Shown: positions 6,158 through 44,664 of the stretch, one piece after another
Position numbering within the stretch: position 1 is the first letter of the stretch
Layout: each line of letters starts with the position of its first letter
Origin: Bythopirellula goksoeyrii
Lineage (GTDB): Bacteria; Planctomycetota; Planctomycetia; Pirellulales; Lacipirellulaceae
Length of the DNA: 64,000 nt
NCBI RefSeq assembly: GCF_008065115.1
Contig: NZ_CP042913.1
Span: 3,321,658-3,385,657 of the forward strand
Direction of reading: 5' to 3'
Notes under the pieces: model-generated
The model's input: only the letters and a program-made list of their open reading frames with translations
The model's database searches: none
Told to the model about the DNA's origin: nothing
Translations under genes and position numbers: made by a program

Positions 6158-6240
6158 AAACGCAGAGTGCACAGAGGCGCAGAGAATATGAGAAGTTCAT
6201 TTCCCCGTATTACTCTGCACCTCTGCGGCCTTTGCGTTTA
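6158..6240. repeat. Long imperfect palindrome overlapping the 3' end of apbE
   Basis: The left arm at 6158-6186 (AAACGCAGAGTGCACAGAGG...) pairs imperfectly with the right arm at 6211-6240 (...CCTCTGCGGCCTTTGCGTTT). Arms are about 28 bases with about 25 between. Repeats of this cgcagaggcgcagag kind occur between genes in many bacteria. Here the right arm lies inside apbE and encodes its last residues ([14 protein letters not shown]), so the repeat has extended or replaced the original C-terminus. It could also act as a transcript hairpin between apbE and nqrM. Confidence 0.7.
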
Positions 6241-7306
6241 ACCCTACTCGTTCTACGAAAGCAGAAGTGGCTTGCTGTCCGATCTGGTCATTTGCTTTGC
6301 GTATTAGAAACATGGCGGCTACATCATGCTCCACACACCAATCATATCCCTTTTCCTCTCCCATGACCAATAAGGCGGTTGCCAGCGCATCGGCCTCCAT
6401 ACAGGTGTCGGCAACGACCGAAACTGTGGCTACCTGGTGCTGAACGGGACGGCCAGTCGTTGGGTCAATCGTGTGGGAATAGCGGACACCGTCCTGCTCG
6501 AAGTAGTTGCGGTAATCTCCCGACGTAGCCAGTGCTGCATCTTCCAATTCCAACACCTCGCGAATTGCACGGCCAGATTCATCGGGCTGTTCGATGCCAA
6601 TCTTCCAGGGGATGTCTCCCGGTTTTTCTCCCTGGGTACGAACTTCCCCTCCGATTTCCACCATCGAGGATTCGATGCCCTGCTCGGCGAGCAACTCCGT
6701 CACGGCATCGACGGCGTACCCCTTGGCCACTGCCGATAGATCGAGATAGACATTGGGGTTGCTCTTGCGAAGGGCAGGGGGATCCAGGCGTGCCTCGACA
6801 TGGTGGTAGCCGATACGAGCAAGGGCCGCTTCGATTGCTTCGTCATTCGGCGGCTTTCTGCGCCGTCCATCGGGTCCGAAGCCCCAGAGATTCACTGCCG
6901 GGCCAACTGTCGGATCGAATGCACCACCAGAATCCTCTGCTACCTGCAGAGCGTAGCGTACAACCTTGGCAGTTTCGGGGGAGACATCGAACCAATCAAC
7001 TCCCTCGTATTGATTGAACCGAGAGAGTTCCGAATCAGGATCGTAGGTGGACATCTGCCGATTAATCTCAGTGAGTAGATCATCGACGGCCTTTTGAAGT
7101 TTGTCTGCCTTAACTTCCAGATCTGGGAACACAATGCTAACTGAATAGCGAGTTCCCATCGTTGGTCCAGAAAATGACTCAAGCTTCGCACCAGAGCCTA
7201 CCTTCCACATCGCGGCGATAGGAGGAACAATAAGTAGAAACAAGACAATGTATAAGCACCCTTTGTCTTGTTCATGTACATAGAATCTATCCCCCGAAGT
7301 CGTCAT
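6197..7306 (-). CDS. apbE: ApbE, FAD:protein FMN transferase
   Basis: About 369 residues. ApbE transfers FMN from FAD to a threonine of target proteins; its Nqr targets are NqrB and NqrC. One N-terminal membrane helix ([18 protein letters not shown]) anchors it on the outer face. Family motifs are present: [61 protein letters not shown] and [12 protein letters not shown]. The start at 7306 overlaps nqrF by about 20 bases; a start at 7330 is also open. The last dozen codons come from an intergenic-type palindromic repeat, which probably does not affect the catalytic core. Confidence 0.9.
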
Positions 7307-8510
7307 ACGCGATGTTTTCTTTCTCGACACCCAGATCGTCGAGCATCTTAAATACGGCCGCGTTCATCATTGGAGGGCCGCAGATGTAGTACTCGATATC
7401 CTCCGGCGCGGGATGGTCCTTCAGATAGTTTTCTAACAGCACCTGATGGATGAAGCCTGTGTAGCCGTCCCAATTGTCTTCGGGTTGCGGTTCAGAGAGG
7501 GCGATATTGAATTTGAAGTTAGGAAACTCCTTTTCAATGTCGCGGAAGTGATCGACATAGAAAAGTTCGCGCAAACTACGGCCACCGTACCAGTAGGAGA
7601 CCTTACGGTTGGTCTTGCGGCGTTTGAAAAGTTCGAAGATATGACTCCGCAAGGGTGCCATACCAGCACCACCACCGATGTAGACCATCTCGGCGTCCGT
7701 GTCCTTGATAAAAAACTCACCATAGGGACCAGAGATTGTGACTTCGTCACCAGGCTTACGGCTGAAAATATAGGACGACATTTTTCCAGGGGGCGTGCCG
7801 TCTGGGGCACGCGGCGGAGGACTCGCAACACGGACGTTGAGCATGATGATCCCCTTCTCGCCGGGATAGTTGGCCATCGAGTAGGCGCGTGTCACTGTCT
7901 CGTCTACCTTCGACACGTACCGCCAAACGTTGTACTTGTCCCAATCGCCGCGGAATTTTTCTTCGATGTCGAAATCCTTGTAGGCCACCTCATGAGGAGG
8001 ACATTCGATCTGGATGTACCCACCCGCCTTGAAATCGACTTCTTCGCCCTCAGGCAATTCGAGCAAAAACTCCTTGATGAACGTGGCCACGTTTCGATTC
8101 GATCGCACCTTGCAACGCCACTTCTTCGTGTCGAAGGCTTCGGGCGGGACTTCGACATCCATGTCTTGCTTGACTGCGACCTGACAAGAGAGTCGCATCC
8201 CTTCTCGGGCTTCGAGCTTGCTGATATGGGCCTTCTCGGTCGGTAGAATCTCTCCCCCACCGGAGTGAATGTGCACTTTGCATTGGGCGCAAGTACCACC
8301 TCCACCACACGCAGACGAGACAAACACCCCTGCATCCGCTAGCGCCCCCAAGAGTTTACCTCCTGCGGGAACCTGCACTTCCTTCTGCTCGTTGATGCGG
8401 ATGTTCACATTCCCCGTGGCAACCAGCTTGGCTTTTGCTGCAAGAATCATCAGCACCAAGGCCAATACGACCACGGTAAACATCAACATGCCTATTAAGA
8501 CTTCAAACAT
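7287..8510 (-). CDS. nqrF: NqrF, NADH-oxidising subunit of Na+-NQR
   Basis: 407-residue electron entry subunit. It has an N-terminal membrane helix (residues about 5-26), then a ferredoxin domain with [13 protein letters not shown] and a later LSCQV cysteine for the 2Fe-2S cluster. A flavin reductase domain follows with RAYSMANYP for FAD and [14 protein letters not shown] and YICGPPMMN for NADH. The C-terminal YDDFGG is typical of NqrF. Length agrees with the usual 405-410. It is sixth in nqrABCDEF and is followed by apbE with overlap. Confidence 0.95.
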
Positions 8511-8598: not shown

Positions 8599-9207
8599 TC
8601 ACATTCCACCGAACGACATAAATGCCAGGGCCATTAAGCCTGCCGTCATGAAAGTAATGCCTAGGCCTTTTAGCCCGTCGGGGACGTCGCTGTATTTCAT
8701 CTTTTCGCGAATGCCGGCCAAGGCTGCGATGGCCAGTGCCCAGCCCAGTCCAGCGCCAAATCCGAATACGCAGCTTTCAGGGAAATTGTAGTCTCGCTCC
8801 TGCATGAACAACGACCCGGCGAGAATTGCACAGTTCACGGTGATCAGAGGCAGAAAGATTCCGAGAGCGTTGTAGAGGGGAGGGAAGTAGCGATCCAGTG
8901 TCATCTCCAGGATCTGCACCATTGCCGCGATCGTGCCGATATAGGTGATCAGCGAGAGGAATGTGAGGTCCATATCGCTCCACTCGGTGCTAATCCAACT
9001 CAATGCACCCGGCTTAAGCAGATAATTCAGGAGCAGATTGTTAGCCGGCACGGTGATGGTGAGGATCACGATGACCGCGACTCCCAAGCCAAGCGCAGTC
9101 TTCACGGATTTAGACACAGCGATGAAGGTACACATGCCCAGAAAAAACGCGAGGGCCATGTTCTCGACGAACACCGACTTCAAGAGAATTGAGAGATAAT
9201 GTTCCAT
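8599..9207 (-). CDS. nqrE: NqrE, membrane subunit of Na+-NQR
   Basis: 202-residue integral membrane protein, the usual NqrE length, with about six hydrophobic segments. Recognisable NqrE stretches are [20 protein letters not shown] at the start, [14 protein letters not shown], and [20 protein letters not shown], which holds one of the conserved cysteines. NqrE and NqrD form the inverted membrane pair that holds an iron centre between them. The gene follows nqrD by only four bases. Confidence 0.95.
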
Positions 9208-9211
9208 GGCG

Positions 9212-9841
9212 TTAGGCTCCGTGTTCCACTTGTTCCGGTTTCCAGGTCCGTTGCGCCCAGATTAGCAAGCCAATGAGGAAAAAAGCACTGGGTGGGAGCA
9301 GCAGCAAGCCGTTGGGGACATACCAGCCGCCGTCGTTGACCGCGGGAAACACCGGGTAGCCCCAAAGTTTGCCAGCCCCAATCAATTCGCGACAGAAACC
9401 GACGATCAATAATACCAAGCTGTATCCCAAGCCAGCCCCAATTCCATCGGCAGCACTCAGCAGGGGAGGGCTCTTCATCGCAAACGCCTCGGCACGGCCC
9501 ATGACGATGCAGTTGGTGATGATCAGTCCAACAAAAACGGAAAGCTGTTTGCTGATGTCGTAAAAATACGCCTTCAAGAATTGGTCGACGATAATCACCA
9601 ACGAAGCGATGATCGTCATTTGCACGATGATACGGATGCTGCTGGGGATGTACTTGCGAATCAAACTGACTGCTGCGTTAGAGCATCCCGTCACCAGGAC
9701 GACTGCCAAGGCCATCACGGCCGCCGTTTGTAATTTACTTGTCACCGCCAGTGCAGAGCAAATCCCCAGGACTCCCACCGTGATCTGATTCTTATCAACC
9801 AGAGAACTCAGGATCGCTTCTTTGTATTTTGCGTCAGCCAC
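9212..9841 (-). CDS. nqrD: NqrD, membrane subunit of Na+-NQR
   Basis: 209-residue membrane protein matching NqrD. It has [31 protein letters not shown], and [21 protein letters not shown], which holds a conserved cysteine. It pairs with NqrE around the membrane iron centre. The gene lies five bases after nqrC and four before nqrE, so the three are surely one transcript. Confidence 0.95.
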
Positions 9842-9846
9842 GAGTC

Positions 9847-10656
9847 TTATTCTCCTGTCTGTGCGGTTAGATTGTCCAAGAATGGGCCAAAGCCTTCAGG
9901 CCCTAGCCAGTATTGTACCAACTCCGTAACCCCGTTACTTGTTAGCGTAGCGCCGGAAAGTCCGTCTACTTTGTACTCAGCATCCGGATCATCAGCGGGA
10001 ACACTTCCCTTGACGACATGCAATTCGACATGCTCCTCGTCGCCATCGGAATAGAGGTGTTTGCCGGACCAGATATCAGTCCAGAGGGGGTTTTCGATTT
10101 CACCACCCAAGCCGGGGGTTTCGCCGTGTTCGTAAAAGGTAATTCCTCTCACGGTGTTGCCATCGGCATCGATGGAAATAAATCCATACAGCGTTGACCA
10201 CAATCCTTTGCCAACGACGGGTAACACTACTTGGTCGAGCTTCTCTTGGTCGTCCTTAACCTCATAAGCGAACGCGTACTTGGCCCTCCGTTTGATTCCT
10301 CCCAACGCAGTGGGAGGTTCTACGAGAACACTCATTTCAGGATCACGGACCGCATCACGTTGGTTGTAATTTGCCACATTGATCTCGTCGCTCTCGCTAT
10401 TAATCGGTTCGCCCGTTTCCAAATCGACCAGTACCGCCTCAATCTTTTCTGCGAAGATGTCGTCGATCTCAGAGGGAGTATTCTCACCTTCTTTGTAGAG
10501 TTCCGCAGCTAAGAGAACATTCTTTTTTTGATCGAGCTGCTTATTGAACTCTTGTCTACTGCGCAGGCCAACTGCAGCACTGGCGACCAGCACGGAACAG
10601 ACCACGCAGAGGACCGTGGCAACCAACAGAGTGTAAGGAACGCTATCACGCCGCAT
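9847..10656 (-). CDS. nqrC: NqrC, FMN-carrying subunit of Na+-NQR
   Basis: 269 residues from the ATG at 10656, which overlaps the nqrB stop by 11 bases and places the membrane anchor ([20 protein letters not shown]) at the N-terminus. A longer frame starts at 10704 but would run deep into nqrB. The FMN is covalently held on the threonine of [12 protein letters not shown] at about residue 235, the target of ApbE. The middle region has [26 protein letters not shown] cut by the usual FMN_bind domain layout. Confidence 0.93.
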
Positions 10657-11866
10657 AGCGAGCTGCCCTCCTCTTGATGTTTGATTGAACCACGAAGTAA
10701 TCAATCAACGGAGCGAAGGTGTTGCCGAAAAGAATAGCGAGCATGATTCCTTCCGGGTAGGCGGGATTGATGACTCGAATCAGAATGGTGAGCACACCTA
10801 TCAAGATGCCATAGCACCAACGGCCAACGTCGGTCATCGCTGCTGAGACCGGATCGGTCGCCATGAAAACCGTACCGAAGGCAAAGCCGCCGATCACAAA
10901 ATGCCAGAAGGGATTGAGCGTTATCATAGCGTTTTGGGTCGCGTTGCCACTGAAAATCCAAAACAAGCCAGAAGTCACAAAGGCTCCAGCTACGACACCT
11001 GCCATCACGCGCCAGGAGCCGATTCCGACTGCGATCAGCAAGATGGCACCCAGAATACACGCCAAGGTAGAAGTCTCACCCATCGAACCTTGAATGTAGC
11101 CGATAAAGCAGTCCCACCAACTGTAGCCGGTGAGAGCAGGTATCGTGTCTGAAACCTTGGCGGTGGCCATCGCCCCTAAAGGTGTGGCCGCTGAGAAACC
11201 ATCGGCAGCGGTCCAAATGGCCATCCCTGTGAGTTGCGTGGGGTAGGCGAAATAAAGGAACGCGCGGCCTGTGAGTGCAGGGTTGAGGAAGTTCTTTCCA
11301 ATGCCGCCATAGATTTCCTTCCCGATGACCACGCCAAAAGATATTCCCAGGGCGACTTGCCACAAGGGAATCGTTGGCGGCAACGTTAGTGGAAACAGGG
11401 CGCTAGTAACAAGAAAACCTTCGTTGATTTCGTGCTTGCGGACACTGGCAAACAAGCCCTCCCAGGCACCACCCACTGCGACTGTGACAAAATACACGGG
11501 GATAAAATAGAGCCCGCCCAGTACGAAGTTATCCAGGAAACTTCCCGGATCGTGGCCTAAACCCAAGGCCGTTAGCACGCTTTCACGCCACCCTTCGGTC
11601 GGAGTGCCTTGACCGTTCTCGATCGCCAGGTTGGCTTGATACCCCGTGTTGTCAAACGCCATGAAAAAACAAGGCAGCAATGCGACCACCACCAGCGACA
11701 TCATCCGCTTAAGATTCATCCCATCTCGAACGTGGGACGGCCCCTGGGTGGTATCGCTGGGCGTGTAGAGAAACGTATCGATCGCTTCATACATGGGATA
11801 AAGCTTCTCCAGCTTACTTCCCTTGCTGAAGGCAGGATGCAGTCGATCTAAAAGTTTCCGCAACAC
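10646..11866 (-). CDS. nqrB: NqrB, ubiquinone and Na+ channel subunit of Na+-NQR
   Basis: 406-residue polytopic membrane subunit. The covalent FMN site is seen as [16 protein letters not shown], with the modified Thr at residue 228; most homologues have Ser-Gly/Thr-Ala-Thr here, so Ser-Ala-Ala-Thr is a mild variant. Other NqrB signatures are [61 protein letters not shown] and [16 protein letters not shown]. It is separated from nqrA by a 109-base gap. Confidence 0.95.
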
Positions 11867-11975: not shown

Positions 11976-13349
11976 CTATCCCTCTACTTCAATTCTTGTC
12001 AGTGCATCCCGTAGCATGGGGCCAAACTCGTGTTTGCCGGGGTCCACATAGGTACACAAGGCCAAATCTTCTTCGTCCAGTTCTAAGACTCCTAACTGTT
12101 GGGCAAACTCGGTATCGCCCACGGTCAGTGATTTCAGGAGTGGCGTGGCAACAATGTCCAGTGGCATCACTTGCTCGTACATGCCGATCGGCACGATTGC
12201 CCGTGGGCTTCCTTCGGTGCTGGTATTGAACTTAAATCGCGACGAATCACCAACGACGCTGCTCCACGCCGAGGAGAAGACTCGTCGCACGGAGAACTTG
12301 TCCGCACCGGGTTTCATCCAACCAAGAAAATCGCGTTCTCCCCCTTCGGCTAGCACGGTCACCTGGTTGTGGAAGCGGCCCAGGTATCCTGTGGGATCCA
12401 CACTGCGCCTGCCTGAGAAAACCGAACCCGAGATTATCCTCGCTCCAAATTCCGAAGGCGACGTGTATTGACCCTCTGTGAGTTCGGCTAGCGAAGCCCC
12501 GAGTTGAGTCTTCACCAAGCGTGGGTTGTTCACCACAGGACCCGCCAGTGAAACAACCCGCTCAGTCAGCAGCTTGCCGGTCAGGAATAAGTGTCCCACC
12601 GCGATCACGTCCTGATAGCTGATGTGCCACACTGTCCTCTGGCGATCTACCGGCATCAGCGTGTGAATGTGTGTACCGACTAAGCCTGCCGGATGGGGGC
12701 CATCAAAGGCATGGAACTCGACTGGCGTTTTTCCTTCGCCAGGGATGTCAGCGCCGGCTCGGCGACAGACGTAGGTTGGTCCATCGCTTAGTTGGCTCAG
12801 CACTTCCAGGCCCGCTACAAAGTCAGCCGGCCGTTCGGCTATGACGATACTTGGGTTGGGTGCCAGGGGATTGGTGTCAATTGCCGTAATGAACAGAGCA
12901 TTGGGAATCGAGTCAATTTCAGGGACCTTGCTAAAGGGCCTGGTTCGCAAGGCCGTCCACATTCCCGAGGCGACCAGTTGTTCGCATACATGCTGGCGGT
13001 CGAGTTGGGTGAGATTTTGGTCTCGATGTGCCGTAAAGGTCTCTTGGTCGTCACCTTCGATCTCGATCACCAGCGAAAGAAACTTGCGCTTGGCACCACG
13101 GTTGACCCCCACGACTTTCCCGGAAGCGGGGGCCGTGAATTGAACTCCTGAGGTCTTTTTGTCGGTAAAAACTGGTTGACCAAGTCGTACACGGTCTCCC
13201 TCCGACACGAGCATGGTCGGCTTCATACCCACGTAGTCCGCGGCAACTAGGGCAACGTGCCGAATCACCGGACTCTCGGAAATCGCCTGCGCAGGCTCTC
13301 CCACAATAGGCAGGTTCAAACCTCGAGCGATCTGATGGACGCTGGTCAT
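11976..13349 (-). CDS. nqrA: NqrA, cytoplasmic subunit of Na+-NQR
   Basis: 457-residue soluble subunit, first gene of the operon. It has the biotinyl-lipoyl-like N-terminal region (YVGMKPTMLVSEGDRVRLGQ and GKVVGVNRGAKRKFLSLVIE), a central QDVIAVGHLFLTGKL segment and the C-terminal LCTYVDPGKHEFGPMLRDAL. The complex oxidises NADH, reduces quinone and pumps Na+ outwards. A perfect Rex-type operator lies 62 bases upstream of the start, so expression of the whole operon may follow the NADH/NAD+ ratio. Confidence 0.94.
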   Translation of the reverse strand: MTSVHQIARGLNLPIVGEPAQAISESPVIRHVALVAADYVGMKPTMLVSEGDRVRLGQPVFTDKKTSGVQFTAPASGKVVGVNRGAKRKFLSLVIEIEGDDQETFTAHRDQNLTQLDRQHVCEQLVASGMWTALRTRPFSKVPEIDSIPNALFITAIDTNPLAPNPSIVIAERPADFVAGLEVLSQLSDGPTYVCRRAGADIPGEGKTPVEFHAFDGPHPAGLVGTHIHTLMPVDRQRTVWHISYQDVIAVGHLFLTGKLLTERVVSLAGPVVNNPRLVKTQLGASLAELTEGQYTSPSEFGARIISGSVFSGRRSVDPTGYLGRFHNQVTVLAEGGERDFLGWMKPGADKFSVRRVFSSAWSSVVGDSSRFKFNTSTEGSPRAIVPIGMYEQVMPLDIVATPLLKSLTVGDTEFAQQLGVLELDEEDLALCTYVDPGKHEFGPMLRDALTRIEVEG

Positions 13350-13410
13350 GGTGGTGAAAAATGTCCTAAATAGCTAGGATTTATGCATGTGCGAATCCGC
13401 TCGGCAGGGA

Positions 13411-13428
13411 TTGTGAATTTTTTCACAA
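13411..13428. promoter_or_regulatory. Rex-type redox operator upstream of nqrA
   Basis: TTGTGAATTTTTTCACAA is a perfect match to the Rex box described in several phyla (TTGTGAA, four A/T-rich bases, TTCACAA). Rex is a repressor that leaves DNA when NADH is high. The site is 62 bases upstream of nqrA, whose complex consumes NADH, so target and regulator agree in logic. A second perfect palindrome, GACTCGCGAGTC, follows at 13432-13443. No rex gene is in this window. Confidence 0.65.
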
Positions 13429-13545
13429 ATAGACTCGCGAGTCAATAACCTACTACTGGCAAAGGCTTTGTGCAAGACTGACATAAGAATAGAGTGCATT
13501 CCGGGTGCGATTTTTTTCATAATTGAGCGTCGGGGGAGCGTTTAA

Positions 13546-13605
13546 TGTCATACCGAGGGAATCCCAGAAATCAGGCCAGATCCCTCGGAATAAATCGTGA
13601 TAACA
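13546..13605. repeat. Dispersed palindromic repeat, copy R1
   Basis: This segment shares its core with the elements at 35589-35721 and 45732-45889. It has CCGAGGGAATC, then a centre containing GGCCAGATC and the pairing arm CCCTCGG, then a GATAACAA tail comparable to GATGACAA in the others. Unlike those, I could not see clear outer inverted repeats or a target duplication, so it may be an old, worn copy. It lies between the nqr promoter and the 3' end of the glucoamylase gene and could also work as a terminator hairpin. Confidence 0.5.
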
Positions 13606-13629
13606 ACTATCAGGTTCCCCGAGACACCT

Positions 13630-16023
13630 TTACGCGATCTCAATCGAAAAGTCCCTACCTTCCCACCGCCGTGCACTGAGCCACAGGAAAGTGAACTGAA
13701 CCGGGCCAATACCATAGTTCTCTGGCATGATGTCGCAGAAATAGACTCCAACGCCTGCATCGGATGAATCCAGGTCACCTTGGGACTTCCATCCGTCACA
13801 AGAGTAGCGCAGGCGAAATGGGGCCTGTGCTTGAATACGAAGCGTTCGGCCCCGACTCATTTTGCCGATTTGACGGTTAAATTTCCACACTTCCCAGTCG
13901 ATACGTTTGCGGGGTTTGAGATAGCGGTCTGCCACGGCGGGAATTCGATCAAAGATCGCCCCATCTTTGATCGAACGCAGAAGCTTGATGTATTCTGCAT
14001 GAGCCCACATCAGTGGCATTGCGGCACCAGTCGGTCGACCAAAGAACATCCGCAACTCAGGATCGTCGGCGGTGTCCCAGACCTGTTCGGGGAGGAGCCC
14101 TGTGCTGCTGGCGAAGGACTCGATGGCATGAACAAGCGGTTTCACATCGCGTCCGGCAGCCAATTCGTAGTGCGCCCGTTCACCGGTTAATAGTGGCCAT
14201 GCGCGGCCCTGGCCCCAACCGACGAATGGTCCGCCGTCGGCGCGCTGTCCGTAGCCGTCGCGGTTGTAGCGACGCCAACAGGGCCCAAAAGGTGTTTCGA
14301 CCTTGAGAACCGAGTCGACTACTTTTAAGGAATCTACAATCACAGGGTCGTTCGGCGGTCGAATGCCATAGCGCACGAACTCAAGAAAACCGGCGTCCAC
14401 GATTTCCTTGGCTGGAAATGCTGCCTTCAAACCAGGCGCACGGTTCTTGACTAAGAGTGTCCCGCAATTGGGATCCTCATTCGGAGACGCATCACTCAAG
14501 TCGAGAGGACGAATTCGGATGAAGTGCCGAGGAATTCCTTCAACAAGTTTTCCCTCCGTCGTGACCGTCCATTGCTCAATATGGCTTTCCAGAAAGTCGG
14601 CGTACTCGCTCAGATAGTTTGCAGTCTCCGACTCTCCCCGGCTGTCTGCCAACTGGGCCGCACACACCAACGCGGCAATGTTTGAGGCAAGCGTTGAGGG
14701 GGAATAGCCGCTGTTTTCTTCCCAACGTTCCTGAGGGGTCGCGGGACCTTGGCGAATTAAATATCCCGCGGCAGCTCGAACCATGGGCCATGGGTCAAAG
14801 TCCTTTAAGCAATCCGCCTCGTGTAGCTTCCAGGCAAGCAAGATCGGAAACGCAACCTCATCGAGTTGAATGCCTGACCAGTAGGGTTCGCCATCGATCC
14901 AAAAGTTTTGAGGAAAACCGCCATTGGGGCACAGTGAACTGGCCAAGTAGACCAAAGCCCGAAATGGTGTCTCGGTATTGCCCGAGGCAAGCAGCCCCAG
15001 GGCGCTATTGACCATGTCACGGGTCCAAACGAGATGATATCCCCCGAGATCGTCGTCCCCTTTGGCTTCTCCCCAAGGGATGCTCAGTGAGGCAATCATG
15101 GCTCCGGGATAACTCTTGTCTTCGTGGGCAAGCAGCAGACTATGGCTCGTGCGATAGAGACGACCACCGTCCTGGGAGACGTCGTCGAGATCGAGAACCG
15201 TGCGGCATGCACGCGACCACTGGTCGCTAAACCTTGCCTGCTGGTCTTCAAAAGGAATCGCGAGTGATTGCCACAAGGAGGTAATCGCCCCATGCAGATG
15301 ATCCCCAAATCCCAATCCGAGTGTAAACTCCGCGCCATCGCCCACGGAGATTTCAGCGATCATTGCCACATTGCCGTCGGCAGCGATGTTGAATTGCCAA
15401 TCGAGCTTTTTGTTGCTCGACAGATCCTGCCAGCCGTCGGAGATGCCCACGTAGCCACACGACGCAGTTGTGAATGCCCGAGTACAACCCATGGCAAGCC
15501 AGCGCCGCTCAGAGTTGGCCACCAAGATGCGCTGGTCATTCACAGATGCGACCTGGGCTGTGTTATTCCAACCTCCACCTCCCAGATGAGGAGCCAACAG
15601 AGCATAGAGTCGGAGTTTGCCTCGCCACTTGGGTGAAGGAAAAAACCGAGTATGGATTAGCACACACGCGGCATGCGGGGCAGAGATTATTTGTTTTTCG
15701 ATCCGGTAGCGCCCTGCATCATCTTCATTGACGATTCGATAACCGAGTGAATTGTCGCACATCCGTTCGATGGAATTCTTGGTATGCCGGCGCTCATCAT
15801 GGCAGAAAGTCTCCCCGTCGGTGACCATGTATTGCAAGTCGCGAATTTGCGGCTCGTCGATCGTTGGATAATAGACTTCGTTGAGAATCCCGCCAGACAC
15901 GGTCCACCAAATCAGGCTGGATGCCGAATAGGCGGTACCTACACCTTGCTTGTCACTGCGCGTCCAGCGTGGCTGAATACCCGGGCGACCGAATGCGGGG
16001 CGATTGCTGAGTAGCTCGGTCAT
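13630..16023 (-). CDS. GH15 glucoamylase/glucodextranase-type alpha-glucosidase
   Basis: 797-residue enzyme with the two-part layout of bacterial glucan 1,4-alpha-glucosidases. There is an N-terminal beta-sandwich (GGILNEVYYPTIDEPQIRD) and an alpha/alpha-barrel with GGYHLVWTRDMVNSALGLLA. The likely catalytic glutamates lie in ERWEENSGYSPST and LLPEQVWD. It should release glucose from the non-reducing ends of alpha-glucans such as glycogen or starch. No signal peptide is seen, so it probably acts on internal glycogen. A C-terminal beta domain of about 80 residues follows the barrel. It is separated from the MarC gene upstream by a short gap. Confidence 0.9.
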   Translation of the reverse strand: MTELLSNRPAFGRPGIQPRWTRSDKQGVGTAYSASSLIWWTVSGGILNEVYYPTIDEPQIRDLQYMVTDGETFCHDERRHTKNSIERMCDNSLGYRIVNEDDAGRYRIEKQIISAPHAACVLIHTRFFPSPKWRGKLRLYALLAPHLGGGGWNNTAQVASVNDQRILVANSERRWLAMGCTRAFTTASCGYVGISDGWQDLSSNKKLDWQFNIAADGNVAMIAEISVGDGAEFTLGLGFGDHLHGAITSLWQSLAIPFEDQQARFSDQWSRACRTVLDLDDVSQDGGRLYRTSHSLLLAHEDKSYPGAMIASLSIPWGEAKGDDDLGGYHLVWTRDMVNSALGLLASGNTETPFRALVYLASSLCPNGGFPQNFWIDGEPYWSGIQLDEVAFPILLAWKLHEADCLKDFDPWPMVRAAAGYLIRQGPATPQERWEENSGYSPSTLASNIAALVCAAQLADSRGESETANYLSEYADFLESHIEQWTVTTEGKLVEGIPRHFIRIRPLDLSDASPNEDPNCGTLLVKNRAPGLKAAFPAKEIVDAGFLEFVRYGIRPPNDPVIVDSLKVVDSVLKVETPFGPCWRRYNRDGYGQRADGGPFVGWGQGRAWPLLTGERAHYELAAGRDVKPLVHAIESFASSTGLLPEQVWDTADDPELRMFFGRPTGAAMPLMWAHAEYIKLLRSIKDGAIFDRIPAVADRYLKPRKRIDWEVWKFNRQIGKMSRGRTLRIQAQAPFRLRYSCDGWKSQGDLDSSDAGVGVYFCDIMPENYGIGPVQFTFLWLSARRWEGRDFSIEIA

Positions 16024-43770: not shown

Positions 43771-44664
43771 GAACATGTCCCGATAGCGTGAAAAGATAAA
43801 AGTGCTCCGGCTTCTCCTTTGGTTTTTGCGATCCAAGGATGGAGAAGCCGCAGCATGAAGACTGAGAGACAGTATCCCAGTGATTTGACTTACAGGCAAT
43901 GGCAAGTTATCCGACGCCTGCTACCACGATGGAGTGGATTTGGCCGAGAACCGATCTGTCGTCGATAGGTGATTGACGCCATCCTGTACGTGTCACGCAC
44001 CGGCTGCCAGTGGCGACAATTACCGCATGACTTTCCGAATTGGAAAACGTTGTACAACAATTTTTGGACATGGCGGAACGTTGGAACTTGGCAGCGGATT
44101 CACAACACACTTCGCGAAAAGGTGCGGAAGTCGGAAGGCAAGAAACCAAATCCCACAGCAGCCATCATCAATAGCCAGTCGATTCGCTCGGCCGAGGGAG
44201 GAGAAGAACGGAGCTATGCTCCGGGCAAAAAAATCACTGGCCCCAAACGACACTTGGCAGTGGATACGTTGGGAATGGGCTGACGGTGGTCGTCCATAGC
44301 GTGAGTTGCCTAGATCAATATAAAGCGCAGTGGGTGATGAACAAACTTGGGGAACAATTCCGTCGGCTGAGAGTTGTGTTTGGCGATTCGGCTTACGGAA
44401 GGTCGAGGCTTCCCGATTGAGTGCGTGAAACTTTTGGCTGGGTCCTACAAACCGTGCTGCGACCCATTCACACTAAAGGATTCGTTGTGCTACCCAAACG
44501 ATGGATCGTCGATCGAACCTTCGCCTTGCTTGCGAGATATCGCAGGCACAGCAAAGACTATGAAAAAACTACAGAGTTGGCAGAAGCAATTACCTACATC
44601 GCCATGATTAACTTGAAGTCGAAGCGAATAGAAAAATCATGAAAAACCCTATCAGGACACGTTC
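43771..44664 (+). mobile_element. IS5-family insertion sequence, copy 3 (diverged, decayed)
   Basis: Exactly 894 bp like copies 1 and 2, with ends GAACATGTCCCGATAGCG and, from the right, GAACGTGTCCTGATAGGG. The flanks are TGA on the left and TTA on the right, so the target duplication does not match, which suggests that it was involved in a rearrangement. It is related to but clearly different from copies 1 and 2 along its length. Confidence 0.88.
43855..44642 (+). pseudogene. IS5-type transposase, multiply disrupted
   Basis: Starts MKTERQYPSDLTYRQWQ. Damage: TAG at 43966-43968, a frame change after VDTLGMG near 44280, and a TGA where copies 1 and 2 have Trp (LPD-stop-VRETFGW). In addition the first catalytic Asp is Asn (AIINSQSIRS). 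At the codon that is TAA in copies 1 and 2 this element has CAA (LDQYKAQWVM), which helps infer the ancestral sequence. Confidence 0.87.

Follow-up and report, generated by a model that had tools for sequence, protein, structure and literature searches.

The window, by which we mean the whole stretch of 64,000 nucleotides that was analysed, carries on its minus strand a complete Na+-NQR operon, with nqrABCDEF in order and then apbE, which overlaps the end of nqrF:

11976-13349, minus strand: nqrA (NF003759, 5.1e-201)
10646-11866, minus strand: nqrB (NF003756, 1.3e-175)
9847-10704, minus strand: nqrC (NF003749, 1.9e-96)
9212-9841, minus strand: nqrD (NF006777, 6.6e-101)
8599-9207, minus strand: nqrE (TIGR01940, 4.3e-99)
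7287-8510, minus strand: nqrF (TIGR01941, 2e-205)
6197-7330, minus strand: apbE, FAD:protein FMN transferase family (NF007774, 280.6 bits against a cut-off of 498; PF02424, 5.2e-98)

Judged by NqrA, the closest named relative is Bythopirellula polymerisocia (86%; Pirellulales, Lacipirellulaceae). Upstream of nqrA and on the same strand there is a glucoamylase-like gene (13630-16023, minus strand), whose score against TIGR01535, 720 bits, falls just under the cut-off. Also upstream of nqrA stands TTGTGAATTTTTTCACAA, an exact 7-4-7 inverted repeat at 13411-13428, together with two predicted promoter elements:

13411-13428, strand not assigned: candidate Rex-type operator TTGTGAA-TTTT-TTCACAA, a perfect palindrome (sequence and conservation)
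13440-13445, minus strand: predicted -35 box TTGACT, 11 bp from the operator (promoter scan and home-family conservation)
13417-13422, minus strand: predicted -10 box AAAAAT, within the operator (17-bp spacer, 9 of 12 matches, preceded by TG)

The first-pass annotation had reported a palindrome perfect in both arms, and the 18-mer is indeed where it was said to be, although the distance to nqrA, given there as 62 bases, is 61 when counted from the ATG at 13349. It had also called the site an exact match to the published Rex operator. This holds as well: within the accessible parts of the papers concerned, the site agrees with the S. aureus consensus TTGTGAAW4TTCACAA (PMC2883068) and, more generally, is an exact TTGTGAA-N4-TTCACAA palindrome (PMC2883068, PMC5355995). 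In the window, the Rex pattern is matched once at 0 mismatches and once at 3, with no other match below 3; the 3-mismatch site, at 44088, is within chance and was rejected. A scan of the whole 6.47 Mb genome for further such sites, as had been proposed, returned 2 exact matches and, at no more than 2 mismatches, 40 places (12 with the pattern reversed as a control), some of them in front of other redox operons. One site, G000:C1:3705276, was not counted as an operator, since it lies inside a 758-codon ORF.

How well is the palindrome preserved in relatives? Its absence upstream of nqrA in related planctomycetes had been set beforehand as a result that would speak against a Rex operator. The order sampled, which we infer from named relatives to be the Pirellulales, was represented by 146 genomes, 54 of them with NqrA over the cut-off, 46 outside family f17 and 8 within it. 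Allowing up to 2 mismatches in the 400 bp before nqrA (in G134, just 219 bp of upstream sequence), the site is present in all 46 genomes outside f17, perfect in 16 and with at most one mismatch in 43. In f17, the same search of up to 400 bp finds it in 0 of 8 genomes, and outside the order it precedes nqrA in 0 of the 52 genomes examined, these being the non-order genomes with NqrA over the cut-off in a phylum sample of 392 (53, less G510, whose nqrA match lacks the N terminus). Among 80 named nqrA loci, the site occurs in 10 of 22 planctomycete ones, several of which come from the same genomes as the order sample, and in 0 of 58 others; one of the 12 planctomycete loci without it is labelled Pirellulaceae (L407, 3 mismatches). 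As for controls, 60 palindromes with shuffled arms were run against the 46 upstream regions: they gave 0 matches when up to 2 mismatches were allowed, and a mean of 1.3, the largest being 16, at up to 3. What is more, the exact motif with 6-base arms occurs 47 times in 31 genomes and its reversed control 0 times. No other shared palindrome was evident by eye before nqrA in f17 or in the two genomes outside the order that have rex.

The position of the site with respect to the promoter is equally relevant. The promoter scan of 13300-13640 gave the -35/-10 pair above as its sole match, and shuffled sequences average 0.6 such matches, so that the pair is not above chance by itself. Of the 20 home-family genomes, 19 have TTGAC on the 5' side of the site at a distance of exactly 11 bp; the other flanking positions mostly agree with this genome in 10 of 19 or fewer, two of them in 12 and 15, and the -35 box and the palindrome alone stand out as conserved. 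Because TTGAC is found at exactly this distance, the site would cover the -10 element, and an operator so placed suggests, for the home family and on sequence grounds, the position of a repressor. Counting against this, none of the 26 genomes that have the site but belong to other families shows TTGAC at 11 bp. According to the accessible parts of the respective papers, Rex sites in S. aureus lie within or beside promoters (PMC2883068) and those of S. avermitilis overlap the promoter (PMC5355995).

A search with PF06971 yields one convincing rex gene in this genome (G000:C1:1964589-1964729). Its product of 224 residues is recognised by NF003995, the model for the redox-sensing transcriptional repressor Rex (1.7e-77), and joins the winged-helix domain PF06971 to a Rossmann CoA_binding domain with GxGxxG. 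Both QVRKDL and GxGxxG are preserved, and 8 PDB sequences match, the best at 1.4e-45; all of them, or almost all, bear the name Rex. The lack of a rex homologue, which had likewise been named in advance as fatal to the proposal, can thus be set aside: a Rex protein with both domains, and with solved Rex structures among its matches, is encoded in the same genome as the site. A second PF06971 match (L002) was rejected as Rex, being DeoR-like by sequence and also below the cut-off.

Across the order, 44 of the 46 site-bearing nqr genomes outside f17 have a rex match that passes the cut-off. The other two, G053 and G109, carry the nqr site and give no rex match in the genome search, which counts against Rex. 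In f17, rex is present in 6 of 8 genomes and is divergent in its DNA-binding part, reading QVRKDLAITG..RPKVGY against QVRKDLAHFG..HPGIGY in four of those aligned; the f17 loci (L308-L315) combine this altered region with no such operator before either nqrA or the Rieske gene. Outside the order, rex occurs in 2 of the 52 genomes, both distant and both without the site. Upstream of rex itself, the site is found neither in this genome nor in more than 1 of 30 relatives, and there is no sign of autoregulation here. A stop flagged in rex of G117, G121 and G004 was discounted, as the alignments show none in the aligned part. In G111, a member of the home family, rex is decayed, with internal stops (L319:965-1315), nqrA is absent and the cytochrome bc site is changed at position 7; in G139, rex and nqrA are both absent. 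Taken together, these two cases look like recent joint loss. That said, since the site-bearing genomes belong to one order, the correlation between site and rex rests on few independent events.

In this genome the motif also fronts a Rieske-cytochrome b operon, a CBS-domain protein and a 4Fe-4S ferredoxin. The first of these sites, at L179:4480-4497 (G000:C1:5205979-5205996), lies between purD and the Rieske-cytochrome b operon. Of 129 genomes that gave a match of any kind, the survey of this locus, with 6-base arms and up to 2 mismatches, took in the upstream sequence of 70, namely 60 outside f17 and 10 in it. The site precedes the Rieske gene in 59 of the 60, the exception being G090, and in 0 of the 10 f17 genomes. 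In 58 of the 59, TTGAC is found 29-38 bp before the site, which would therefore fall just after the -10 element. For 14 of the 60 loci, the genome shows no rex match over the cut-off; the site is kept in 13 of the 14 and is preserved there about as in rex-bearing genomes. Some of the rex-less genomes are in families whose other members have rex, and in family f14 neither of the 2 sampled genomes has a match. Gaps in draft assemblies likely account for the missing rex in some site-bearing genomes; overall, sites without a rex match may reflect such gaps, recent loss or another binder.

The ferredoxin site, L007:1501-1518 (G000:C1:5839488-5839505), is present in 8 of 10 home-family loci and 2 of 20 others (30 loci). 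Before the CBS-domain gene there are two Rex-type sites 26 bp apart, the second with 2 mismatches (L003:1501-1544; G000:C1:2734032-2734075); in a comparison of 30 loci, for one of which (G011) 354 bp were available before the gene, a site is found in 19 of 20 from the home family and 1 of 10 others. The Rieske locus was also surveyed in f21, a group we place, again by named relatives, within the Planctomycetales. Here, 20 of 27 genomes were looked at and 13 had clear orthologues (2.3e-60 or better). The 20 yielded one 2-mismatch site (6-base arms), which belongs to G432 and stands about 100 bp upstream of the gene's N-terminal piece. It lies at approximately 967323-967340 of G432:C1, in a genome without a rex match, and by our own arithmetic chance alone should give about one such match in that search.

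On this evidence, the sequence comparisons support the Rex interpretation put forward in the first-pass annotation, with rex present and the palindrome conserved before nqrA in relatives: the candidate site is most likely an operator of the Rex type, conserved at the promoter of nqr and bound by the genome's own Rex. Could another regulator be at work instead? One candidate, absent from the earlier annotation, is a member of the CRP/FNR family. Namely, the consensus core of this family, TGTGA-N6-TCACA, fits the same bases of the site; many relatives retain the 6-base arms TTGTGA/TCACAA alone, as at every bc site that is mismatched at position 7 or 12; some genomes that give no rex match still have sites; and this genome encodes a CRP-type HTH protein (G000:C1:2289268, 3.1e-15). 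However, CRP/FNR sites share only the inner core, without required T/A flanks or a preference for A-T, and CRP activates from sites upstream of the promoter, whereas here, at both nqr and bc, the site coincides with the expected -10 or follows it. Moreover, in a search with the single model PF13545, a CRP-type protein is found in this genome but not throughout the site-bearing ones: 6 of 19 nqr genomes with the site (G002, G053, G109, G117, G121 and G140) give no match that passes the cut-off. Conversely, 11 of 11 f21 class-mates have such a match (10 at 1.1e-14 or better, G497 weakly) and no rex, and none has the nqr site. We therefore regard binding by a CRP/FNR-type regulator rather than Rex as improbable. 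G117, in which PF13545 finds nothing, contains three more exact TTGTGA-N6-TCACAA sites of a more CRP-like kind (C11:237129, C87:4858 and C100:22800).

A different factor, sharing the Rex operator sequence and present also in genomes without rex, seems slightly less probable still. G053 and G109 keep the nqr site with neither a rex nor a CRP-type match, and the 13 bc sites kept in genomes without a rex match point the same way. Against these observations, the sequence in front of redox operons matches the published Rex consensus exactly, and 44 of 46 and 46 of 60 site contexts include a rex gene; the exceptions are mostly fragmented assemblies, and in G111 the rex gene is visibly decayed. Finally, a chance palindrome or a structural element (terminator or RNA hairpin) has next to no probability: a small inverted repeat could form a hairpin, but the motif is conserved in 46 of 46 genomes against 0 matches for 60 shuffled palindromes, bearing out the earlier view that chance is a very unlikely origin, only the -35 box and the palindrome are conserved in the home-family flank, and the arms are A+T-rich and placed at the expected transcription start.

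Returning to Rex, we consider it highly probable that the Rex encoded in this genome uses the palindrome as an operator, at which it would repress nqr and from which NADH would release it; binding, repression and NADH as the signal are attributed here by analogy with the known Rex family. While the NADH/NAD+ ratio is low, a dimer of Rex would sit on the operator, over the predicted -10 of the nqrA promoter, and block RNA polymerase. As NADH builds up, Rex would be released and nqrABCDEF-apbE transcribed, leading to more Na+-pumping NADH oxidation. The conserved palindrome suggests a respiratory chain that the bacteria tune to the level of NADH in their own cells. The same repressor probably also controls the cytochrome bc (Rieske-cytochrome b) operon, and being shared it would, as we propose, set NADH dehydrogenase and complex III together. 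A broader reading, which we hold with less assurance but still favour, is that Rex of the Pirellulales is an order-wide respiratory switch, with its operator on the promoters of Na+-NQR and complex III and, in the home family, paired sites at the CBS gene as well, and that where rex is lost or changed, as in f17 and G111, the operators or nqr are lost too. If true, this would bring the phylum into the range of the NADH/NAD+ sensor Rex and link that sensor to Na+-NQR and to the bc complex. Redox control of a respiratory chain based on Na+ could then be tested, and f17 and G111 would serve as natural experiments on the joint loss of a regulator and its sites.

It is instructive to set this picture beside known Rex systems, described here from the accessible parts of the papers cited. 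In the open literature searched, which takes in few subscription papers, we found neither Rex control of nqr nor a planctomycete Rex regulon; Rex control of nuo and ndh, on the other hand, is already published (PMC5355995). In S. avermitilis, the regulon comprises nuoA1-N1, ndh2, cyd, atp and rex-hem (PMC5355995). As here, the Rex motif, TTGTGAANNNNTTCACAA, stands at respiratory promoters, including that of an NADH dehydrogenase (PMC5355995), but in this actinobacterium the target is complex I and not Na+-NQR, and rex lies within its own regulon, of which there is no sign here. Its footprinted sites tolerate other bases at position 7 (TTGTGACC.., TTGTGATA..; PMC5355995), and in this they are like the sites of the relatives studied herein. 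The B. subtilis targets, named in PMC5355995 as ndh, cyd and ldh, likewise place an NADH dehydrogenase under Rex, although a non-pumping Ndh rather than the Na+ pump Nqr. Rex of S. aureus, by contrast, has mainly anaerobic and fermentative targets, with no nqr among those given in the accessible part of PMC2883068, and yet its consensus, TTGTGAAW4TTCACAA, is identical to the site described here (PMC2883068). The mechanism would be the ordinary one of Rex, while the lineage and the targets are new relative to the open literature searched.
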